A stretch of 61,673 nt of DNA, from contig JAUUDM010000003.1 of NCBI GenBank assembly GCA_030826765.1, positions 1 through 61,673 on the forward strand, given 5' to 3'. The DNA comes from Nautiliales bacterium. GTDB taxonomy: Bacteria; Campylobacterota; Campylobacteria; Campylobacterales; JAADDX01. Shown here in pieces: positions 2,736 through 11,891 of this stretch (positions are counted from its first letter, which is position 1; each line of letters opens with the position of its first letter). The position numbers were made by a program, and so were the translations under genes. Under the pieces are notes generated by a model. That model saw only the letters and a program-made list of their open reading frames with translations, ran no database searches and was not told the origin of the DNA.

Positions 2736-3141
2736 TCAAAAAAATTTAAAAGAACTTTATTATGAAAAAATGGATAAATTAAGAGAAACTTTTGATTTTA
2801 ATAATCAAAATGAGACTTTTAATAAGTTATTAGAATATTCTAATGAATTAGAAAAAGAAATAGAAAATCATTTTACTTTACAAAATAAACTAACTAATCA
2901 AATAAATAAAGAAGTTGATAGAATTGTATTAGAAAATATGCTTGTTAGAAGAATTATGCTAAATATGAATAATAAAATTAAACAAGGTGCTATAAATAAA
3001 GATGTTAATATCTTTGCTTTTTTTGATGAATTTGAGGAAATTTTAAGAGCTTATCTTAAAAAAGAAGAAGGGCTTTTTATTCAAGAATTAGAAATTGCTA
3101 CAAACGAAGAAGAAAAAAAGAAAATTAAAGAGATTATTTAA
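2713..3141 (+). CDS. Conserved hypothetical coiled-coil protein
   Basis: 142 residues, very rich in Lys, Glu and Asn, predicted almost entirely alpha-helical with heptad-like stretches (about 1-75 and 100-142). It has no signal peptide, membrane segment, cysteine or catalytic motif that I recognise. The ATG has AAGG upstream and lies inside the end of aat (23-nt overlap), so it is probably co-translated. Its 3' end overlaps dnaJ (opposite strand) by 8 nt. Function unknown. Confidence 0.75.
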
Positions 3142-4234
3142 ACCACCCTTTTACTTTTTCTATTGCTTCTTCAAAAATAGATTTATGAGCGTTTACCTCT
3201 TTTCCAAAACTTTTATGAAGTTTTTCAAGTAATTCTTTTTGTTCATCTGTTAATTTTTCAGGATAAATAATTTTTAAAATAGCTATTAAATTACCTTTTC
3301 TTCCTGTATGAACATTAGGTATTCCTTCTTGTTTAAATCTATATTTTGTTTTATCTTTTGTATGAGGTTTGATTTCAAGCTCTTTTTCACCTGTTAAAGT
3401 AGGTATTTTTATTTTATCCCCTAAAATAGCACTTGTAAAGAAAATAGGTACCTCAACGAAAATATCATCACCATTTCTTTTGAAAATTTTATCTTCTTTT
3501 ACTGTAATATGAATATATAAATCCCCTCTTCTTCCATCAAAATCTTCATTACCTTTATTTGGTATTCTCATTCTCATACCATCATCTACACCTGCTGGTA
3601 TGTCAAGTTCTATTTTATCTTTGTTTATTTTATATCCACTACCTTTACATTCATCACACTCTTCATCTATGATGATTCCACTACCTTGGCAAGTTGGACA
3701 AGTTTGAGCAACTTTCATAAATCCATGGCTCATAAATACTTGACCTGCACCTGAGCAAGTAGGACATGTATGTGATTTTTTTGCTCCTGTTCCATTACAA
3801 GATTTACAAATAGTATAATATTCATACTCTTCTTCTTTTTTTACACCAAAAACCGCTTCTTTAAATTCAAGTTCAACTTCTATTAAAATATCTAAATTAT
3901 ATGGAGTTTCTTTTCTTTTTTCTCTTCTTCCACCAAATCCAAACATTTCTTCAAAAATATCTTCAAATCCACCAAAACCTCCAAATCCACTACTACTTCC
4001 ACCCATTTGTCCATCAAGTCCAGCTTTCCCATATTTATCATAAATTGCTCTTTTTTTATCATCGCTTAAAACTTGATAGGCTTCATTTATTTTTTTAAAC
4101 ATTTCTTCAGCTTCTTTATCACCAGGATTTCTATCTGGATGGTATTTCATTGCTTTTTTTCTATATGCTTTTTTTATTTCTGCTTTTGTCGCTGTTTTTG
4201 ATACTTCTAAAATTTCATAATATTCAAATTCCAA
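3134..4234 (-). CDS. dnaJ: Chaperone protein DnaJ (Hsp40)
   Basis: 366 residues with full type I architecture: J-domain (1-65) with HPD at 32-34, Gly/Phe-rich linker (about 75-102), four zinc-binding CxxCxGxG repeats (from 143, 157, 179 and 193), then the two beta-sandwich substrate domains. It stimulates DnaK ATPase and delivers unfolded clients. The start is TTG at 4234, preceded by GGAGA; a TGATATAAT box lies upstream. No dnaK or grpE adjoins it. Confidence 0.96.
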
Positions 4235-4352: not shown

Positions 4353-4358
4353 TATAAT
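4353..4358 (+). promoter_or_regulatory. Predicted -10 box of the hydrogenase-4-like operon
   Basis: TATAAT about 80 nt upstream of the first gene of the complex, in the divergent gap with dnaJ. It is followed 6 nt later by a perfect inverted repeat. Confidence 0.5.
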
Positions 4359-4364
4359 TCGGCA

Positions 4365-4395
4365 TAAGTTTTTAAACTTAAACTAACCTTAAACT
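4365..4395 (+). promoter_or_regulatory. Inverted and direct repeats, candidate operator of the hydrogenase-4-like operon
   Basis: Directly after the -10 box lies a perfect palindrome, TAAGTTT-TT-AAACTTA (4365-4380). The heptamer TTAAACT occurs three times, at 4372, 4378 and 4389. This falls around and just downstream of the expected transcription start, where a repressor site would act. The repeats are seen directly; regulation is inferred. Confidence 0.4.
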
Positions 4396-4433
4396 CTTTG
4401 GAGCTTATCGAATATCACAAAAGGTTGCTAACT

Positions 4434-6293
4434 ATGTTTAATTTTGATTCCCTTTCGTTGTTGTTTGTTTTTTTAATCTTACTTGGTGCAATTCCAAATC
4501 TATTTTATGCAAGTGGATATTTATCACATATAAAAAGAAAAACACACTTTTTAATCCACTATTTTACATTTATTATTTCAATGATTGGAGTTGTTATCTC
4601 AAATGAAGTTGTTGTATTTTTATTTTTTTGGGAAATTATGAGTTTAACTTCTTGGCAATTAATTCTTACAGAACCAACAGAAAAAGCAATTAAATCTGCA
4701 CGATTTTACTTTTTTATGACCCATTTTGGTTTTGTATTTATTTTACTATTTTTCTTAATACTTTCACCTGATAACGCATTTGCATCATTTAATGATATGA
4801 AAGAATTAGCAAATAACTTTAAATACCCTACTCTATTATTTGCTTTAATTACAATTGGATTTTTAAGTAAAGCTGGAGCTGTTCCTTTTCATGTATGGCT
4901 TCCTTATGCTCATCCAGAAGCACCGAGTCCAGTTTCTGCACTTATGAGTGGAGTTATGTTAAAAGTTGCAATTTATGCCTTTTTAAGATTTATATTTATT
5001 TTACCAAATTGGCAACTTGAATGGGGAGTTATTATTTTAACTATTGGTGCATTATCAAGTTTAATAGGAGTTTTATACGCACTTGCAGAACATGATATAA
5101 AAGCACTCCTTGCAAATCACTCTATTGAAAATATTGGAATTATTTTAATTGGTATTGGTGTTGGTATGATTTTTACTAATTTACATCTTTACACACTTGC
5201 CGCTTTTGGTTTTATTGCTGCAGTTTATCATACATTTAACCATATGAGTTTCAAAGCCTTACTTTTTATGAGTGCAGGTTCAGTTCTACATCAAACACAT
5301 ACAAAAAATATGGAAAGCTATGGTGGACTTATTAAAACTATGCCAGTTACTGCTTATCTATTTTTGATAGCAGCTATTTCTATTTCAGCACTTCCACCAA
5401 CCAATGGATTTTTGAGTGAATGGATGATTTTTCAAAGTATGTTAAGTTCACATAGTGTTGATGATATTATTTTAAAACTTGCTTTTCCTTTTGCAATATT
5501 TGCTCTTGCTTTAACTGGAGGACTTGCAATAGCTTGTTTTGTAAAAGCATTTGGTATAACATTTTTGGGACTTGAGAGAAGCTCAAATGCAAAACATGCT
5601 AAAGAAGTTAATAAGCTTATGTTAATTGGACAAATTTTAATGGGAGGTGTTGTTATATCTCTTATGTTATTTTTACCAAATATTATTCATTTGATAAATG
5701 TATCTTTACCTATAGTTGATATTTATTCAAAACTATTTCCAAATTATTTTGTGATGCACTCATTAAATGGTGGTGCAGTTGCTCCACTTTTACTTTTAGG
5801 AGCACTTATTGTAATTACGGCACTAATAGTATATGTTTATAAATCTCTAAATTTAAAAGAGAGAATCTATCACACTTGGGCTTGTGGATATAATACAAAT
5901 TCAAGAAGTCAATATACAGCCACAGGATTTGGTGGACCTATTAGAAGATTCTTTGAATGGCTTTATAAACCAGAAGTTCATTCTCATAAAACTACATTAG
6001 CAGGACATAAAACTAAATTTAGCGATTCACTTTTTGAAGTACATGTAAAACCTCTATTTGAAAAATCTTTATATGATAATACAAAACTTTTAGTAGATAA
6101 AATAAGTGATATTATTTACAAATGGAGTAATTTTGAAAAAGAAAAATATGCTTCTTTAATCTTTATTTTATTAGCAACTGTTCTATTTAGCTATAGAGTT
6201 TTTGCTCATCAAAGTAGTTGGGGAAGTATTTTACTTGAATTTACAGTAATGTCTATATTTATCAAAATTATTATAATAGGAGATAAAAAATGA
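4434..6293 (+). CDS. hyfB: Hydrogenase-4 subunit B-like / NuoL-type antiporter-like membrane subunit
   Basis: 619 residues from ATG 4434, which has AAAAGG 9 nt upstream; a longer TTG start at 4398 in the same frame is less likely. Polytopic protein of the NuoL/MrpA family, with the expected intramembrane charges: Glu67 in LFFWEIMSLTSW, Lys146 in FLSKAGAVPFHVWLP, Lys177, and a later His/Lys helix (HTFNHMSFKALLF). The C-terminal WACGYNTNSRSQYTATGF block is typical of HyfB. It probably carries out ion translocation in the complex. It heads six genes; the next starts within its stop codon. Confidence 0.88.
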   Translation: MFNFDSLSLLFVFLILLGAIPNLFYASGYLSHIKRKTHFLIHYFTFIISMIGVVISNEVVVFLFFWEIMSLTSWQLILTEPTEKAIKSARFYFFMTHFGFVFILLFFLILSPDNAFASFNDMKELANNFKYPTLLFALITIGFLSKAGAVPFHVWLPYAHPEAPSPVSALMSGVMLKVAIYAFLRFIFILPNWQLEWGVIILTIGALSSLIGVLYALAEHDIKALLANHSIENIGIILIGIGVGMIFTNLHLYTLAAFGFIAAVYHTFNHMSFKALLFMSAGSVLHQTHTKNMESYGGLIKTMPVTAYLFLIAAISISALPPTNGFLSEWMIFQSMLSSHSVDDIILKLAFPFAIFALALTGGLAIACFVKAFGITFLGLERSSNAKHAKEVNKLMLIGQILMGGVVISLMLFLPNIIHLINVSLPIVDIYSKLFPNYFVMHSLNGGAVAPLLLLGALIVITALIVYVYKSLNLKERIYHTWACGYNTNSRSQYTATGFGGPIRRFFEWLYKPEVHSHKTTLAGHKTKFSDSLFEVHVKPLFEKSLYDNTKLLVDKISDIIYKWSNFEKEKYASLIFILLATVLFSYRVFAHQSSWGSILLEFTVMSIFIKIIIIGDKK

Positions 6294-7216
6294 TTCAATA
6301 TATTTTAACAACTCTTCTTATTTTTATAATTGCTCCATTTTTAACAGGGCTAATAAAAAGTATTAAAATGTTTTTGTTATTTAAGAAACCAATTTCACCA
6401 TTTCAACCATATCTAGACTTAAAAAAGTTATTTAATAAAGAAATAATTTATTCAAAAGAAACCTCATCAATTTCAAGAATAGCACCATTTTTAATTTTAT
6501 CTCCTATTGTTTTAGTTGTTTTTTTACTTCCTCCTATTTTTTCAGGAAGTTTTTATATATCTTTTATGGATGCTTTTACAATTACAGGACTTTTAAGTCT
6601 TTCAACATTTTTTTTAATGTTGATTGGACTTGATAGTGCAAGTAGTTTTGGAGGAATTGGAGCAAGTAGAGAATCTTTTATTTCTGCTTTGGTAGAACCA
6701 GCAATGATACTAACAATTTTTTCAGTTTCTTTAATTGGACAAAATATCAATATTGGAGCAAGTGCTTTAAATTTAGCAAATAATTTTCCATTAGAACATA
6801 GTGCAAGTTTTATTTTGGCAGGTATTAGTTTTTTTATTTTATTAATTGCAGAAAATGGAAGGATTCCAATAGATAATCCAGAAACTCACTTAGAGCTTAC
6901 AATGGTTCATGAAGCTATGATTTTAGATGTAACAGGTGCAAATTTAGCTCTAATTGAACTTGCAGGAAGTTTAAAATTTATTATTTTTGCTTCAATTTTT
7001 GTAACTCTTTTTATTCCTTTTGGAGCTGACTTATGCTGGTGTTTAGCAGTAACAATTTTTATTTTAAAATTATTCTTTGTTGCATTAGCAGTTGCGTTAG
7101 TTGAGGTAAATGGTGCAAAACTTAGACTTTTTAAAGTTCCTAATTTACTTGGAATTGCTATAATTTTTGGATTTTTAAGTTTAGTTACATTCTATATTTT
7201 AGGGGGAAATCAATGA
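6290..7216 (+). CDS. hyfC: Hydrogenase-4 subunit C-like / NuoH-type membrane subunit
   Basis: 308 residues with about eight membrane helices. It is the NuoH/HyfC membrane anchor that links the hydrophilic electron-transfer arm to the ion-pumping subunits. Family signatures are the cytoplasmic loop FKKPISPFQPYLDLKKLF near the N-terminus and AENGRIPIDNPETHLELT with several acidic residues in the middle. It overlaps hyfB and the following gene by 4 nt each (ATGA), suggesting coupled translation and fixed stoichiometry. Confidence 0.9.
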   Translation: MIQYILTTLLIFIIAPFLTGLIKSIKMFLLFKKPISPFQPYLDLKKLFNKEIIYSKETSSISRIAPFLILSPIVLVVFLLPPIFSGSFYISFMDAFTITGLLSLSTFFLMLIGLDSASSFGGIGASRESFISALVEPAMILTIFSVSLIGQNINIGASALNLANNFPLEHSASFILAGISFFILLIAENGRIPIDNPETHLELTMVHEAMILDVTGANLALIELAGSLKFIIFASIFVTLFIPFGADLCWCLAVTIFILKLFFVALAVALVEVNGAKLRLFKVPNLLGIAIIFGFLSLVTFYILGGNQ

Positions 7217-7806
7217 TAAATGCACTTATTGGCTTTTTTATAGCTATTTTAATTTCAGCTTTACTTACTACAAGACTTTATAAACTTTTCTTTTGGTATG
7301 CTCTAAACTCTTTAATGCTTGGAAGTATCGCCATAATTTTAGGACTTGAAATTACAGATAAAGCTATGATAACTACGGGAATTATTACAATAGTTATTAA
7401 ATTTTTATTAATTCCATATATTTTAAAATATATAACAAAAAAATTTGATATAGATAGAAAAGCTCCTCCAAGTTTAACTATTCAATATTCAATTATTATA
7501 GTTCCTATAATTTTAGTATTTACTTTTTATTTAATTTCACCTATGCTTGACTCTTTTGGAGGAAATAGTAATTATGTTGCAATTGCAATTAGTAGTCTAT
7601 TTTTATCACTACTTTTAATAATAGAACAACAAAATATATCTGCAAGAATTGTAGGATTTTTATTTGTTGAAAATAGTCTGTTTTTATTAGGAATCAGTGC
7701 TGTTGAAGGGATGCCAATGTTAATTGAACTTGGTATATTTGTAGATTTAATGATGTTAATCATAATCATAAATCTATTGTTTAAAAATGAAGGAGAAACT
7801 ATATGA
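7213..7806 (+). CDS. hyfE: Hydrogenase-4 subunit E-like membrane protein
   Basis: 197 residues, almost wholly hydrophobic with about six helices, matching HyfE in size. HyfE corresponds to a NuoK-containing segment of complex I. An acidic residue lies in a membrane helix near LGLEITD and another in the ENSLFLLGISAVEG region. The assignment rests on composition, length and place between hyfC and hyfF. 4-nt overlaps occur on both sides. Confidence 0.82.
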   Translation: MINALIGFFIAILISALLTTRLYKLFFWYALNSLMLGSIAIILGLEITDKAMITTGIITIVIKFLLIPYILKYITKKFDIDRKAPPSLTIQYSIIIVPIILVFTFYLISPMLDSFGGNSNYVAIAISSLFLSLLLIIEQQNISARIVGFLFVENSLFLLGISAVEGMPMLIELGIFVDLMMLIIIINLLFKNEGETI

Positions 7807-9191
7807 ATCTAATTTTTATACCACCTATTTTAATATTTTTATTAAGTTATACAAAAATCAATAGAATTTTAATGAGTATAATTGCCACAAGTGTAATAAT
7901 ACCATCTGTTTGGATTATTTTTCATCCATTTAATAATGATTATTTTATGGTAGATAAATTAAACTCTTTTATAATGCTAATTTCTTCAATTGTTGGGATT
8001 GGTGTAAGTATTACAATGATAAGTCTTCCAAAAAGAATACCTTTAAAAGAAAAAAATATAAAAAGATTTTATAGATTCTTTAGTGTTTTTTGGCTTGGTT
8101 TAACTATTTCAATTTTAGCAAACAATATGGGACTTTTTTGGATTGGGCTTGAGTTTGCAACACTTTCAACTGTTTATATGATAAAAGTAAAACCTACACC
8201 AAATGCGCATAAAGAAGCGTGGAAATATTTAATTATTGGTGCTATTGCTATTGCCTTAGTTCTGTTTGGAATTATCTTAATGTATGGAAGTGCCAAAGAA
8301 ATACTTGGTGCAAACGCTATGAACTTTTTAGCACTTTCACAAAATACAGCTCACATCAATCACTTTTTATTTGAATTAGGATTTTTTATTGCTATTACTG
8401 GACTTTTTGTAAAAATGGGATTTTTTCCTATGAATTTGTGGCTTGCAGATATTGAAAGAAGTGCAATTTATCCAGTAGGGGCATTATTTAGTGGAATTTT
8501 AGAATCTGCTATTATTTTAGGATTTTTTAGATTTTCTCAAATTGAGATGCAAATTAATTATTCTCATTTAATTGGATTTGTTTATACTTATGCACTTTTT
8601 ACTCTATTTATGGTAAGTTTTTTAATCTATAAAGCAAAAGATTTTATAAGACTTTTCTCACTTTCAGGAATTGAACATATGACACTAATTTCATTATTTT
8701 GGGTTAGTGGTGGATATTTTGCAGCTCTTTTACATTTTGCCGCACATGCACTTTTTAAACCAGGTTTATTTTTATCAACTGGTATTTTAGAACAAAATGG
8801 TAAATTTAATTTCAAAGGTGTTTTAAAAAATATAAATCCAAAATATGTAAGTTTAATAATATCTGCATTATTACTTGGAGTTGTATCTCTTCCACCAAGT
8901 CCTATGTTTTTTAGTGAAATATTTGGATTTAAATCAATGATAAACATTGCTAAACATTCAGATTATTTTATTTTAATGATAGTTGGAATTGTTTTTATCT
9001 TAATTTTACTAAGCATAATTTTCTACAAATTTGTAAATGTTTATCAAGAAGGATTATATGAAAATGATAATAACAGAGAAAAAAAAGTATATTTAAGTGA
9101 AAAAATTATGCTTATTTTATTTTTTGTATCATTAGTGGCCCTACTTTTTGGATTTGATTATATTGATATAATAGCAAAAGGATTAAAATGA
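7803..9191 (+). CDS. hyfF: Hydrogenase-4 subunit F-like / NuoN-NuoM-type antiporter-like subunit
   Basis: 462 residues with about 14 helices, from the NuoL/M/N antiporter-like family. Characteristic elements are FWIGLEFATLSTVYMI (membrane Glu), FVKMGFFPMNLWLADI (membrane Lys) and the His/Lys helix LLHFAAHALFKPGLFL. It is the second potential ion channel of the complex beside the HyfB-like protein. It overlaps hyfE and the large-subunit gene by 4 nt each. Confidence 0.88.
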   Translation: MNLIFIPPILIFLLSYTKINRILMSIIATSVIIPSVWIIFHPFNNDYFMVDKLNSFIMLISSIVGIGVSITMISLPKRIPLKEKNIKRFYRFFSVFWLGLTISILANNMGLFWIGLEFATLSTVYMIKVKPTPNAHKEAWKYLIIGAIAIALVLFGIILMYGSAKEILGANAMNFLALSQNTAHINHFLFELGFFIAITGLFVKMGFFPMNLWLADIERSAIYPVGALFSGILESAIILGFFRFSQIEMQINYSHLIGFVYTYALFTLFMVSFLIYKAKDFIRLFSLSGIEHMTLISLFWVSGGYFAALLHFAAHALFKPGLFLSTGILEQNGKFNFKGVLKNINPKYVSLIISALLLGVVSLPPSPMFFSEIFGFKSMINIAKHSDYFILMIVGIVFILILLSIIFYKFVNVYQEGLYENDNNREKKVYLSEKIMLILFFVSLVALLFGFDYIDIIAKGLK

Positions 9192-10555
9192 GAAGATTTA
9201 TAACAAGATTTGCATTAGATTTAGGAGATGTTTTTGAAATTCAAGATGTTTTTGAAGGAAAAATAATAAAACATCAAATTGATAAAAAAAACCCTGAAAT
9301 AGAAACTATTACAAAAGATTATCCAGCTGCTATTTGGATGGAGAGAAAAATAAGAGATGAATTTGGAATAAATTTTATTGATAGTTTTGATAATAGACCA
9401 ACTATCAAACACGAAAGATTTCCAAAAGATATTTATCCTTTAAGAAAAGATTTTACTCAAAAAGAGATTGAACTTAGCGATTTTATTCCTTATAAATATG
9501 AAGAGATTGCAGGTGATAATGTTTATACAGTTCCAGTTGGACCAATTCACGCAGGAATTATTGAACCAGGACATTTCCAATTTTCACAAGCAGGTGAAAG
9601 AATGCTTCATCTTGAAGTAAGACATTTTTATAAATATCGTGCAATAGAAAAAATGTGTGAAAATAAAAATCCTCTTGAAATTAAAAAGATTGTAGAAAGA
9701 ATTAGTGGAAATGAATCTATTGCTTATCAAATCGCACTTTTTGAAATATTATCTGAATCTTGTGAAATAGAAATTCCAAAATCTCTGAAACAAAAATATG
9801 CTACCCTTTTAGAAGTAGAAAGGATTATTCACCATTTAACAAACATAGGATTTATTCCGAATGATGCAGGTTTTGGTGCTGCACTTGCTTATGGTTCAAA
9901 ATTAGCAGAAGAAACAAGAAGAATTTTAGCAAGAATTACAAACCATCGTTTTGGATTTGGAGCAATTAAAGAAAATATAGAAATTGATTATAAAGAATTA
10001 ATTGAATTTGTTGATTATTTAGAACAAGAAATTATTTATTTTAGAGATTGGATTTTTGATATTCCATCAATTTGGGATAGACTTGATACTACAGGAATTT
10101 TAACTATTGATAAAGCCGTAAAATATTCTGTTGTAGGAGTTGGAGCGAGAGCAAGTGGATTAGAAATTGATAGAAGAAACAATGAATGGTATAAAAACTT
10201 TGGTTTTATTTTGCAAACGGAAAAAAAAGGAGATGTAGCAGCAAGATTTAAACTTAGAATAAAAGAAATTTTAAATTCTATAGAAATAATAAAAAATTTT
10301 AAAACTTCTGAAAATGAAACTATTAAATTTAGTAAGTTTAAAGATGGAGAATATACGAGTTTTGTAGAAAGTAGTATTGGTGAGCTTTTTATGTTTATGA
10401 AAATAAAAGATGGAATTATTGATAGATTTTATGTTCGTGATGCAAGTCATATTAATTGGCAAGCTTTTCATACAACAATTTATAAAGATATTATAGCCGA
10501 TTTTCCACTAATAAATAAAAGTTTTGATTTAAGCTACGCTGGAAATGATTTATAA
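9188..10555 (+). CDS. hyfG: Hydrogenase large-subunit-like protein lacking the NiFe cysteines (HyfG/Ehr-type)
   Basis: 455 residues: an N-terminal NuoC/30-kDa-like part (about 1-90) fused to a NuoD/HycE-like part. In active [NiFe] enzymes the first ligand motif is CGxC; here the aligned residues are Ser173-Gly-Asn-Glu176 (ERISGNESIAY). The C-terminal DPCxxC is replaced by Asp418-Ala-Ser-His-Ile-Asn423. The whole protein has only two cysteines (157, 192), neither in a ligand position. It therefore cannot bind a canonical NiFe centre and resembles Ehr complexes or complex I NuoCD. The C-terminus is intact (ends SYAGNDL), so truncation is not the cause. Substrate unknown. Confidence 0.85.
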   Translation: MRRFITRFALDLGDVFEIQDVFEGKIIKHQIDKKNPEIETITKDYPAAIWMERKIRDEFGINFIDSFDNRPTIKHERFPKDIYPLRKDFTQKEIELSDFIPYKYEEIAGDNVYTVPVGPIHAGIIEPGHFQFSQAGERMLHLEVRHFYKYRAIEKMCENKNPLEIKKIVERISGNESIAYQIALFEILSESCEIEIPKSLKQKYATLLEVERIIHHLTNIGFIPNDAGFGAALAYGSKLAEETRRILARITNHRFGFGAIKENIEIDYKELIEFVDYLEQEIIYFRDWIFDIPSIWDRLDTTGILTIDKAVKYSVVGVGARASGLEIDRRNNEWYKNFGFILQTEKKGDVAARFKLRIKEILNSIEIIKNFKTSENETIKFSKFKDGEYTSFVESSIGELFMFMKIKDGIIDRFYVRDASHINWQAFHTTIYKDIIADFPLINKSFDLSYAGNDL

Positions 10556-10564
10556 GGATAGAAA

Positions 10565-11065
10565 ATGTTAAAATTTTGGGAAAAAAGAGTAAAAACTGGA
10601 ATAATTACAGAAAATTTAGAATTTGATAAAGAATTAAATGAAATTCAAAAAAATATAAAAGATAAAATCAAAAAGAATTTTGCAGGAAGCTTAGCTATTA
10701 GGATGGTTGATAGTGGAAGTTGCAATGCTTGTGAGGCTGAATGTAATGCTTTAAGCAATCCTTATTATAATTTAGAAAGACTTGGTATTCACTTTGTAGC
10801 ATCTCCAAGACACGCTGATGTTATGCTTTTAAGCGGAGTAGTTACTGCAAATATGTATCACCACGTAGTCGATGCTTATAATCAAATCCCAGAACCCAAA
10901 TGGGTAATTGGTGTGGGTGATTGTATAAAAGATTTAAGTGTTTTTGAAAAAACTTATGCAATAAAAGCAGATGTGCCTTTTAAAATAGATTATTTTATCG
11001 AAGGTTGCCCTCCAACTCCAAAAGATGTAATTAAAGGAATTTTTGAGTTTCTAAAAACTCTTTAA
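10565..11065 (+). CDS. hyfI: Hydrogenase small-subunit-like / NuoB-type Fe-S protein
   Basis: 166 residues of the NuoB/HycG family. It keeps four cysteines expected to bind the proximal [4Fe-4S] cluster: Cys53 and Cys56 (GSCNACEAEC), Cys120 (GVGDC) and Cys148 (EGCPP), with an extra Cys60. The SPRHADVMLLSG motif is typical. So electron transfer up to the large subunit seems intact although that subunit lacks nickel ligands. It begins 9 nt after hyfG. No ferredoxin-like hyfA/hyfH, formate dehydrogenase or hyp maturation gene is present nearby. Confidence 0.9.
   Translation: MLKFWEKRVKTGIITENLEFDKELNEIQKNIKDKIKKNFAGSLAIRMVDSGSCNACEAECNALSNPYYNLERLGIHFVASPRHADVMLLSGVVTANMYHHVVDAYNQIPEPKWVIGVGDCIKDLSVFEKTYAIKADVPFKIDYFIEGCPPTPKDVIKGIFEFLKTL
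11045..11065 (+). terminator. Weak terminator-like hairpin at the end of the hydrogenase-4-like operon
   Basis: GAGTTT (11045-11050) pairs with AAACTC (11055-11060) across a 4-nt loop and is followed by TTTAAAATT. The stem lies in the last codons of hyfI. It is short, so this is a weak call. Confidence 0.3.
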
Positions 11066-11084
11066 AATTCTATCAATATATAAA

Positions 11085-11891
11085 TTATTTTTCTTTTAAC
11101 TTCTTCAAAGCATCATAAGCTTCATTTATCTCTTTTAGGCGTTGCTCAGCATAATCAAGCATATCTTTTGGTAAATTTTTACTAGCTAGCTTATCATAAT
11201 GATATTGTTTTACTAATTCTCTATAATTTTTCTTTATAGTTTCCCAATCATCTGTTGGTTTTGAATTTAAAATTTCATAATAACTATTTGAAGCTTTTGT
11301 TTCAAATTTCATAGCTTCTTTAATCTCTTTTAAAATTTCATTTTCTCCATCAATTCCAGCAAGTTCAGTTAAAACTTTTAAAACATAAGCTTTTGCAGAT
11401 TCATCTAAATCTTTTAATTTATTAGCAATTTCTTTTATATTATCTTTTCTATCTTTCTCACGATTAAAAATCTCTTCATAAATATCAATAACATCAGGAG
11501 TTTTATGTGTCAATTTTGCAAGTTCTAAATATCTTTCAGAAATATATTTTGCTTCTTCACTACTAACAACTCCGTTATCTTTTGCAACTTTTGCCATAAG
11601 AGAAACTATTACACCATCTAAATCATCCAATACCTCATAATAGTTATAATGCTTTTTCTCTTCTTTAGGTGATTCATACGCTTTATAATTAAAACTACTA
11701 TTTTCAGTTTTATTTTCATTATCCATATAAGCTTCTTTATGCTTATTTGGTGCACCACAATAAATACAAAATTCATCATCACATTTGATATTTTTACCAC
11801 AATTTTCGCATTTACATCCAAATTTATTTATATTTTCATAAACTTTATATGCAATAAAAATTGCTATAATTAATAAAATTAAATTCATCAT
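11085..11891 (-). CDS. Membrane-anchored zinc-ribbon, TerB-like, J-domain protein (DjlA-like) with degenerate HPD
   Basis: 268 residues: an N-terminal membrane helix (about 2-16), a zinc ribbon (Cys28, Cys31, Cys42, Cys45), a linker, a helical TerB/DjlA-like domain (about 85-195) and a C-terminal J-domain (about 203-268). The J-domain catalytic motif, normally HPD, is His231-Tyr-Asp233. The rest of the J-domain (YYEIL, KNYRELVKQY, INEAYDALKKLKEK) is well kept. The start ATG overlaps the stop of tlyA by 4 nt. It may be a DnaK co-chaperone at the membrane, or a J-like scaffold if HYD is inactive. Confidence 0.75.
   Translation of the reverse strand: MMNLILLIIAIFIAYKVYENINKFGCKCENCGKNIKCDDEFCIYCGAPNKHKEAYMDNENKTENSSFNYKAYESPKEEKKHYNYYEVLDDLDGVIVSLMAKVAKDNGVVSSEEAKYISERYLELAKLTHKTPDVIDIYEEIFNREKDRKDNIKEIANKLKDLDESAKAYVLKVLTELAGIDGENEILKEIKEAMKFETKASNSYYEILNSKPTDDWETIKKNYRELVKQYHYDKLASKNLPKDMLDYAEQRLKEINEAYDALKKLKEK

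Follow-up and report, generated by a model that had tools for sequence, protein, structure and literature searches.

An energy-converting hydrogenase-related operon of a Nautiliales bacterium lacks every nickel ligand, and some of its relatives lack the iron-sulfur ligands as well

What can a complex built like a membrane-bound hydrogenase be doing when the cysteines that should hold its nickel are gone? The question is raised by six genes in a 61,673-nucleotide stretch of DNA from a Nautiliales bacterium (contig JAUUDM010000003.1 of assembly GCA_030826765.1; hereafter the window), which encode membrane subunits, a large subunit and a small subunit resembling those of hydrogenase 4. Judged from its sequence, the operon is an energy-converting hydrogenase-related (Ehr) complex, a member of a published family of unknown function. 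Ehr complexes are widespread, occurring in nitrifiers, methanotrophs, methanogens, vent bacteria and ultra-small bacteria. Our comparisons suggest that Ehr does not serve hydrogen chemistry and that it may not always transfer electrons.

We aligned the large subunit with Escherichia coli HycE (7z0s_E) and its relatives. The first nickel-ligand motif of active hydrogenases, CGxC, falls on S173-G-N-E176, and the second, DPCxxC, on D447-L-S449-Y-A-G452, within the last nine residues of the protein. An earlier note on this DNA had placed both motifs: its assignment of SGNE (173-176) to CGxC stands, whereas DASHIN (418-423), which it had set against DPCxxC, aligns instead with the RAATYNNW stretch of real hydrogenases. 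As the same note had counted, the protein holds two cysteines only (C157 and C192); neither is at a ligand position, and the alignment places no intact ligand cysteine elsewhere. By this alignment, all four nickel-ligand cysteines are gone. The large subunit ends at L455, three residues past the last ligand position, without the C-terminal maturation tail that true Hyf relatives have.

We identified orthologues at 53-70% identity in 14 genomes of other genera (among 60 relatives), and large-subunit orthologues in 23 of 298 genomes sampled from the class. Gene order is conserved wherever the locus is complete; in one relative (L041) some 5 kb separate the gene for the small subunit from the others. 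Fourteen large-subunit orthologues were aligned. The Campylobacterota members all carry the same ligand replacements (S-G and S-Y-A-G), and none has a cysteine at any nickel-ligand position. Because these substitutions are common to all Campylobacterota orthologues, together with the gene order, they are not the result of chance, decay or sequencing error, in agreement with the earlier view of a maintained Ehr-type complex rather than a decayed hydrogenase.

The host genome (1.51 Mb, 99.7% complete) contains no NiFe hydrogenase large subunit and no HypD, so that no nickel site can be made; its sole other large-subunit homologue is a fused NuoCD. The search for true group 4 NiFe hydrogenases that had been proposed as a check thus leaves the case for Ehr stronger than was first claimed. 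Four more Ehr-bearing genomes (G040, G241, G243 and G260) likewise lack HypD and give no PF00374 match above the cut-off. An Ehr bearer with neither hydrogenase nor HypD takes hydrogen chemistry off the list of candidate reactions. Two things would speak for a hydrogenase whose ligands are cryptic, or for an error of assembly: the gene names given in databases, and a six-gene hyc operon of Nautilia profundicola (GAmH_0723-0718) published as a group 4 H2-evolving hydrogenase (PMC2628731). The alignment and the absence of the maturation gene already refute this explanation, and we give it practically no weight: no ligand-position cysteine occurs in any Campylobacterota member, the window's genome has no HypD, and the large subunit of N. 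profundicola is free of cysteine altogether.

The last of these points concerns an operon that we found at L174 (G077:C1:665000-684000), with six genes in the same order as in the window and proteins 64-79% identical. It occupies the minus strand around 674-680 kb, and its large subunit contains no cysteine at all. From evidence including gene number, strand and approximate position, the published hyc operon appears to be this one. Since the large subunit has no cysteine, the N. profundicola hyc genes should, it appears, be read as Ehr and not as an H2-evolving hydrogenase, a reading that is new here. The operon thus apparently occurs in a named strain, whose published hydrogenase needs re-reading.

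What the empty site has kept was assessed with the functional residues of HycE (PMC9474812; numbers in the 7z0s_E chain are those of HycE plus 12, reflecting an internal tag). Alignment with HycE and NuoD, another check proposed earlier, showed that the proton path is kept and that the nickel ligands, the complex I quinone pair and the canopy arginine are absent. The vacated [NiFe] position is ringed by the retained Glu126 (HycE E193), His216 (H284), Arg321 (R395), Glu360 (E437) and Asp447 (D529). Canopy Arg478 of HycE is replaced by Ile397, HycE Ser283 by His215, and the quinone-site Tyr and His of complex I by Gly174 and Ile125. A predicted structure of the large subunit is good overall (pLDDT 82, pTM 0.85), but confidence is low at residues 101-139 and 449-455, which leaves the pocket unresolved; the closest fold to the model is that of HycE (TM 0.82), followed by complex I NuoCD.

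These residues bear on whether the complex could be a ferredoxin:menaquinone oxidoreductase, that is, a simplified complex I. The fold and the large-subunit homology to NuoCD are in keeping with this, as is the vacated pocket, the one from which the quinone site of complex I arose. We nevertheless consider it unlikely, and the quinone-like acceptor suggested in the earlier note is weakened, as the quinone Tyr/His pair is Gly174/Ile125 and the canopy Arg/Lys is Ile397. The family also has members in Methanoregula and Patescibacteria, which are not known to have quinones. Other marks of complex I are missing too: we found no adjacent CysCys of the NuoB kind in the small subunit, no NuoEF(G) input module in the operon, and no NuoF (Complex1_51K) in the window's genome.

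The membrane arm, by comparison with true Hyf and the wider family, has its ion-channel residues in common with both. Conserved positions include E79, K158, K189, K235 and H282 of the HyfB-like subunit (numbered from TTG 4398), E136, E188, E202 and E208 of the HyfC-like subunit, and E117, K204, H315 and K319 of the HyfF-like subunit. For the redox-coupled charge translocation expected of Ehr, what the sequence shows is these conserved channel residues. In two relatives (L037:3058-6840 and L057) two HyfB-like genes stand in tandem, so that the complex there may have three antiporter-type subunits.

A contig search with a single protein query returned no relatives; with an alignment as query it returned more than 580, in Nitrospira, methanotrophs, Acidobacteria, archaea, Patescibacteria and others. 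In a large-subunit tree built without the ligand columns, the window falls in a 90-row clade of Ehr rows and four-cysteine hydrogenases (support 100/98) apart from Hyf and Ech, and the Campylobacterota copies form one deep subclade (100/100) on a long stem (2.4). The free tree needs two changes in the nickel site; a single clade of all members without nickel ligands is not rejected (approximately unbiased test, p-AU 0.53), and we accordingly do not claim repeated loss of the site. The large subunit is homologous to group 4 hydrogenases and has no Ni/Fe-binding CxxC motifs, and it is accompanied by antiporter-like, NuoH-like and HyfE-like membrane subunits and a small subunit, as in Ehr. The class was reportedly set out in a 2013 paper. 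The Ehr first given that name is GSU0739-0745 of Geobacter (PMC7894505, PMC8691401).

Nitrospira, Nitrosotalea as an ammonia-oxidising archaeon, and the candidate phyla radiation (CPR), all reported to bear Ehr (PMC10284858, PMC10432482, PMC7304191), share the window's large-subunit clade and its lack of CxxC motifs. In Nitrospira and archaea the genes are mostly the same six, B-C-E-F-G-I. The Campylobacterota copies differ from these in their 455-residue large subunits, in H215 and D447 of that subunit, and in a small-subunit cysteine, C60; the CPR copies examined differ from the window in having no [4Fe-4S] ligands and in carrying the small-subunit gene first. Nested in the same clade are group 4 hydrogenases with four cysteines, from Selenomonas, Thermincola and others (L065, L092), up to 39% identical to the window's protein. 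They share its motifs around PIHAGIIEPGHF and DFPLINKSF and keep all four nickel ligands, where the window has S173, E176, S449 and G452. E. coli Hyd-3/Hyf is the best fold match and has a similar HyfB/C/E/F-like arm with HycE and HycG homologues; relative to it, the window has no nickel ligands, canopy Arg, HycB/HycF, formate dehydrogenase or C-terminal processing tail. Of the hallmarks of a group 4 [NiFe] hydrogenase, the four nickel-ligand cysteines, the cleaved C-terminal extension and Hyp maturation in the genome were all absent.

The four proximal-cluster ligands have their counterparts in C53, C56, C120 and C148 of the small subunit, with the CxxC spacing of hydrogenases (C53-x2-C56), and all Campylobacterota members have these four cysteines. 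The earlier note had listed these four correctly and overlooked the fifth, C60, which every member of the Campylobacterota clade has and the rest of the family lacks. As its sequence shows, the subunit is predicted to hold one [4Fe-4S] cluster.

We found that this cluster is not common to all Ehr. In Methanosarcina, Altiarchaeales, Dehalococcoidales and Methanoregula the four ligands are replaced by D/T/D/N (D/A/D/N in one Methanoregula), and in Patescibacteria by mixtures of T/D/S, C/E/A, D/G/A and D/N, C56 alone being sometimes retained. The loss recurs in eight more genomes of Methanosarcinaceae, in two cases on contigs of more than 4 Mb, and in 10 of 10 matches from the class of one patescibacterial genome, and thus does not come from one assembly fault. 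The complexes concerned are otherwise complete, with intact channel residues; by alignment, they have no recognisable redox centre left. The tree requires two changes for the loss, and a single clade of all members without cluster ligands is rejected (p-AU 0.015), the group having been defined after the sequences were seen. Loss of the [4Fe-4S] ligands from Ehr small subunits of methanogens and Patescibacteria, probably at least twice, appears to be new here: we found no report of it in the literature searched, which did not extend to subscription papers. Such complexes raise the question of whether electrons are needed at all for a member of the complex I superfamily to move ions, a point of consequence for coupling in complex I itself.

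We infer donor, acceptor, ion and direction from the observed anatomy and conservation. In the reading that we favour, and to which we give an even chance, the window's complex would be an ion pump fed by ferredoxin through its one [4Fe-4S] cluster, with something other than H+ as the acceptor in the vacated pocket. A soluble low-potential carrier, most likely ferredoxin (or flavodoxin), would give electrons directly to the small-subunit cluster; ferredoxin is deduced from context, and direct donation from the operon having no NuoI/HycF-type entry subunit or NADH module. The lack of a ferredoxin subunit, a formate dehydrogenase and a maturation gene in the operon had been recorded before, and is borne out. 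The cluster would then reduce its substrate at the former [NiFe] position, and charge movement there would push H+ or Na+ across by way of HyfC and both antiporter-like subunits. Run in reverse, the complex might also use an ion gradient to make reduced ferredoxin for 2-oxoacid:ferredoxin oxidoreductases. The window's genome has two POR-type subunits, a sign of reduced ferredoxin being made or used in the cell. In one relative the operon adjoins a 2-oxoacid:ferredoxin oxidoreductase that comes with a ferredoxin of its own, and in four Nitrospirota loci a homologue of that enzyme's alpha subunit lies upstream.

Several results weigh against this ferredoxin-fed pump. Clustering the neighbours of 94 loci gave no recurring partner gene beside the operon, the background being response regulators and ABC transporters, and these neighbourhoods identified neither donor nor acceptor; the oxidoreductase neighbourhood is found in five loci only, four of them from one phylum. 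In addition, with two Ehr lineages lacking the [4Fe-4S] ligands, electron transfer through the cluster cannot be essential to every Ehr, and these relatives speak most strongly against taking redox chemistry as the common function of the family.

The same relatives give a lesser but real possibility to a non-redox ion transporter, in which the hydrogenase-like arm would be a ligand-binding regulatory or conformational module and the window's cluster structural or a sensor. Complete complexes with neither nickel nor [4Fe-4S] ligands, in Methanosarcinaceae, Methanoregula, Altiarchaeales, Dehalococcoidales and Patescibacteria, speak for it, and the D/T/D/N replacement is near-invariant in the group from Methanosarcinaceae to Dehalococcoidales, with channel residues intact. 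It also accords with the Ehr small subunit being the only one of its kind in the seven genomes searched from the patescibacterial clade (including one Saccharibacterium), and with several patescibacterial copies coming after F-type ATP synthase genes. Against it, the Campylobacterota all keep the four ligand cysteines and C60, which a non-redox arm would not need, and the proton path to the pocket is kept as well. The broader proposal, that the job shared by all Ehr needs no electron transfer and that the complex is a hydrogenase-derived ion translocator driven or gated in some other way, the window's cluster being an add-on or sensor, we regard as doubtful.

The ferredoxin-fed pump has one more redox rival, in which sulfane sulfur or polysulfide would be reduced at the proximal cluster itself, as in the MBS complex of Pyrococcus furiosus. 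MBS is likewise a complex I-superfamily member that has lost nickel ligands, and it reduces polysulfide at its cluster (PMC7684303); many Campylobacterota use sulfur. We consider this very improbable for the window. The MBS reaction needs a shortened small-subunit loop and a three-cysteine cluster, whereas the window has no such loop and a four-cysteine cluster of the hydrogenase type; MbsL keeps two nickel-ligand cysteines (PMC7684303), of which the window has none; the window has no MbsN-like entry subunit, and its membrane subunits are others. The family is, moreover, common in aerobic nitrifiers and methanotrophs.

The operon itself comprises six plus-strand open reading frames (about 4434-11065 in the window), co-directional and overlapping or adjacent (Table 1), with matches to Proton_antipo_M (twice, in the HyfB-like and HyfF-like subunits), NADHdh (HyfC-like), Complex1_30kDa and Complex1_49kDa (large) and Oxidored_q6 (small). 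The earlier start at 4353 has to be abandoned: there is no start codon there and an in-frame stop follows. The HyfB-like reading frame opens at TTG 4398, and its likely start is ATG 4434, behind AAAGG, giving 619 residues, a length as in orthologues. A promoter and terminator scan of the operon did no better than with shuffled sequences. Two DnaJ-domain genes on the minus strand flank the operon, one with a weak TerB match.

Table 1. Features of the Ehr operon and its flanks, with positions in the window, and loci whose small subunits carry no cluster ligands
Feature	Positions	Strand	Basis or remark
DnaJ-domain gene	3134-4234	-	
HyfB-like antiporter-type subunit	4434..6293	+	Proton_antipo_M 2.1e-54; hydrogenase 4 subunit B 4e-163
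HyfC/NuoH-like membrane subunit	6290..7216	+	NADHdh 1.3e-29
HyfE-like membrane subunit	7213..7806	+	NCBIfam hydrogenase 4 membrane subunit 9.3e-16, under curated cut-off; place in operon conserved
HyfF/NuoN-like antiporter-type subunit	7803..9191	+	Proton_antipo_M 6.2e-24
Large subunit, fused NuoC+D/HycE-like, EhrL type, 455 residues	9188..10555	+	HycE 7z0s_E 1.2e-41
S173-G-N-E176, position of first nickel-ligand motif CGxC	9704..9715	+	Alignment to hydrogenases
D447-L-S449-Y-A-G452, position of second motif DPCxxC	10526..10543	+	Alignment to hydrogenases
Small subunit, NuoB/HycG-like, 166 residues	10565..11065	+	Oxidored_q6 1.5e-20; MbhJ 6cfw_J 1.6e-25
DnaJ-domain gene	11085-11891	-	
Loci without cluster ligands			L075, L072, L073, L088, L067; L090, L098, L103, L105, L107, L119, L122, L144
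Further loci without cluster ligands			L155-L162, L164-L173

We additionally noted other features of the neighbourhoods and genomes. Patescibacterial Ehr operons lie directly downstream of the F-type ATP synthase beta/epsilon genes in L098 and L105, and also in L090, L103 and L119, and in four loci, three from methanotrophs and one acidobacterial (L089, L109, L115, L120), a SulP-family transporter gene immediately precedes Ehr. The only complex I of the window's own genome has no NuoF, and its fused NuoCD (L051:8743-10392) has neither the His nor the Tyr of the quinone site (HPAS-GP, RICFMDN); this is shared with L027, while L026, L029 and L031 retain HPASHG and RLNY. Finally, L047:3842-5425 (G028) encodes a second Hyf-like large subunit, which is very different and reads TAGTTAF and LGLSVAEND at the nickel-ligand positions; it represents another nickel-free lineage outside the Ehr clade.

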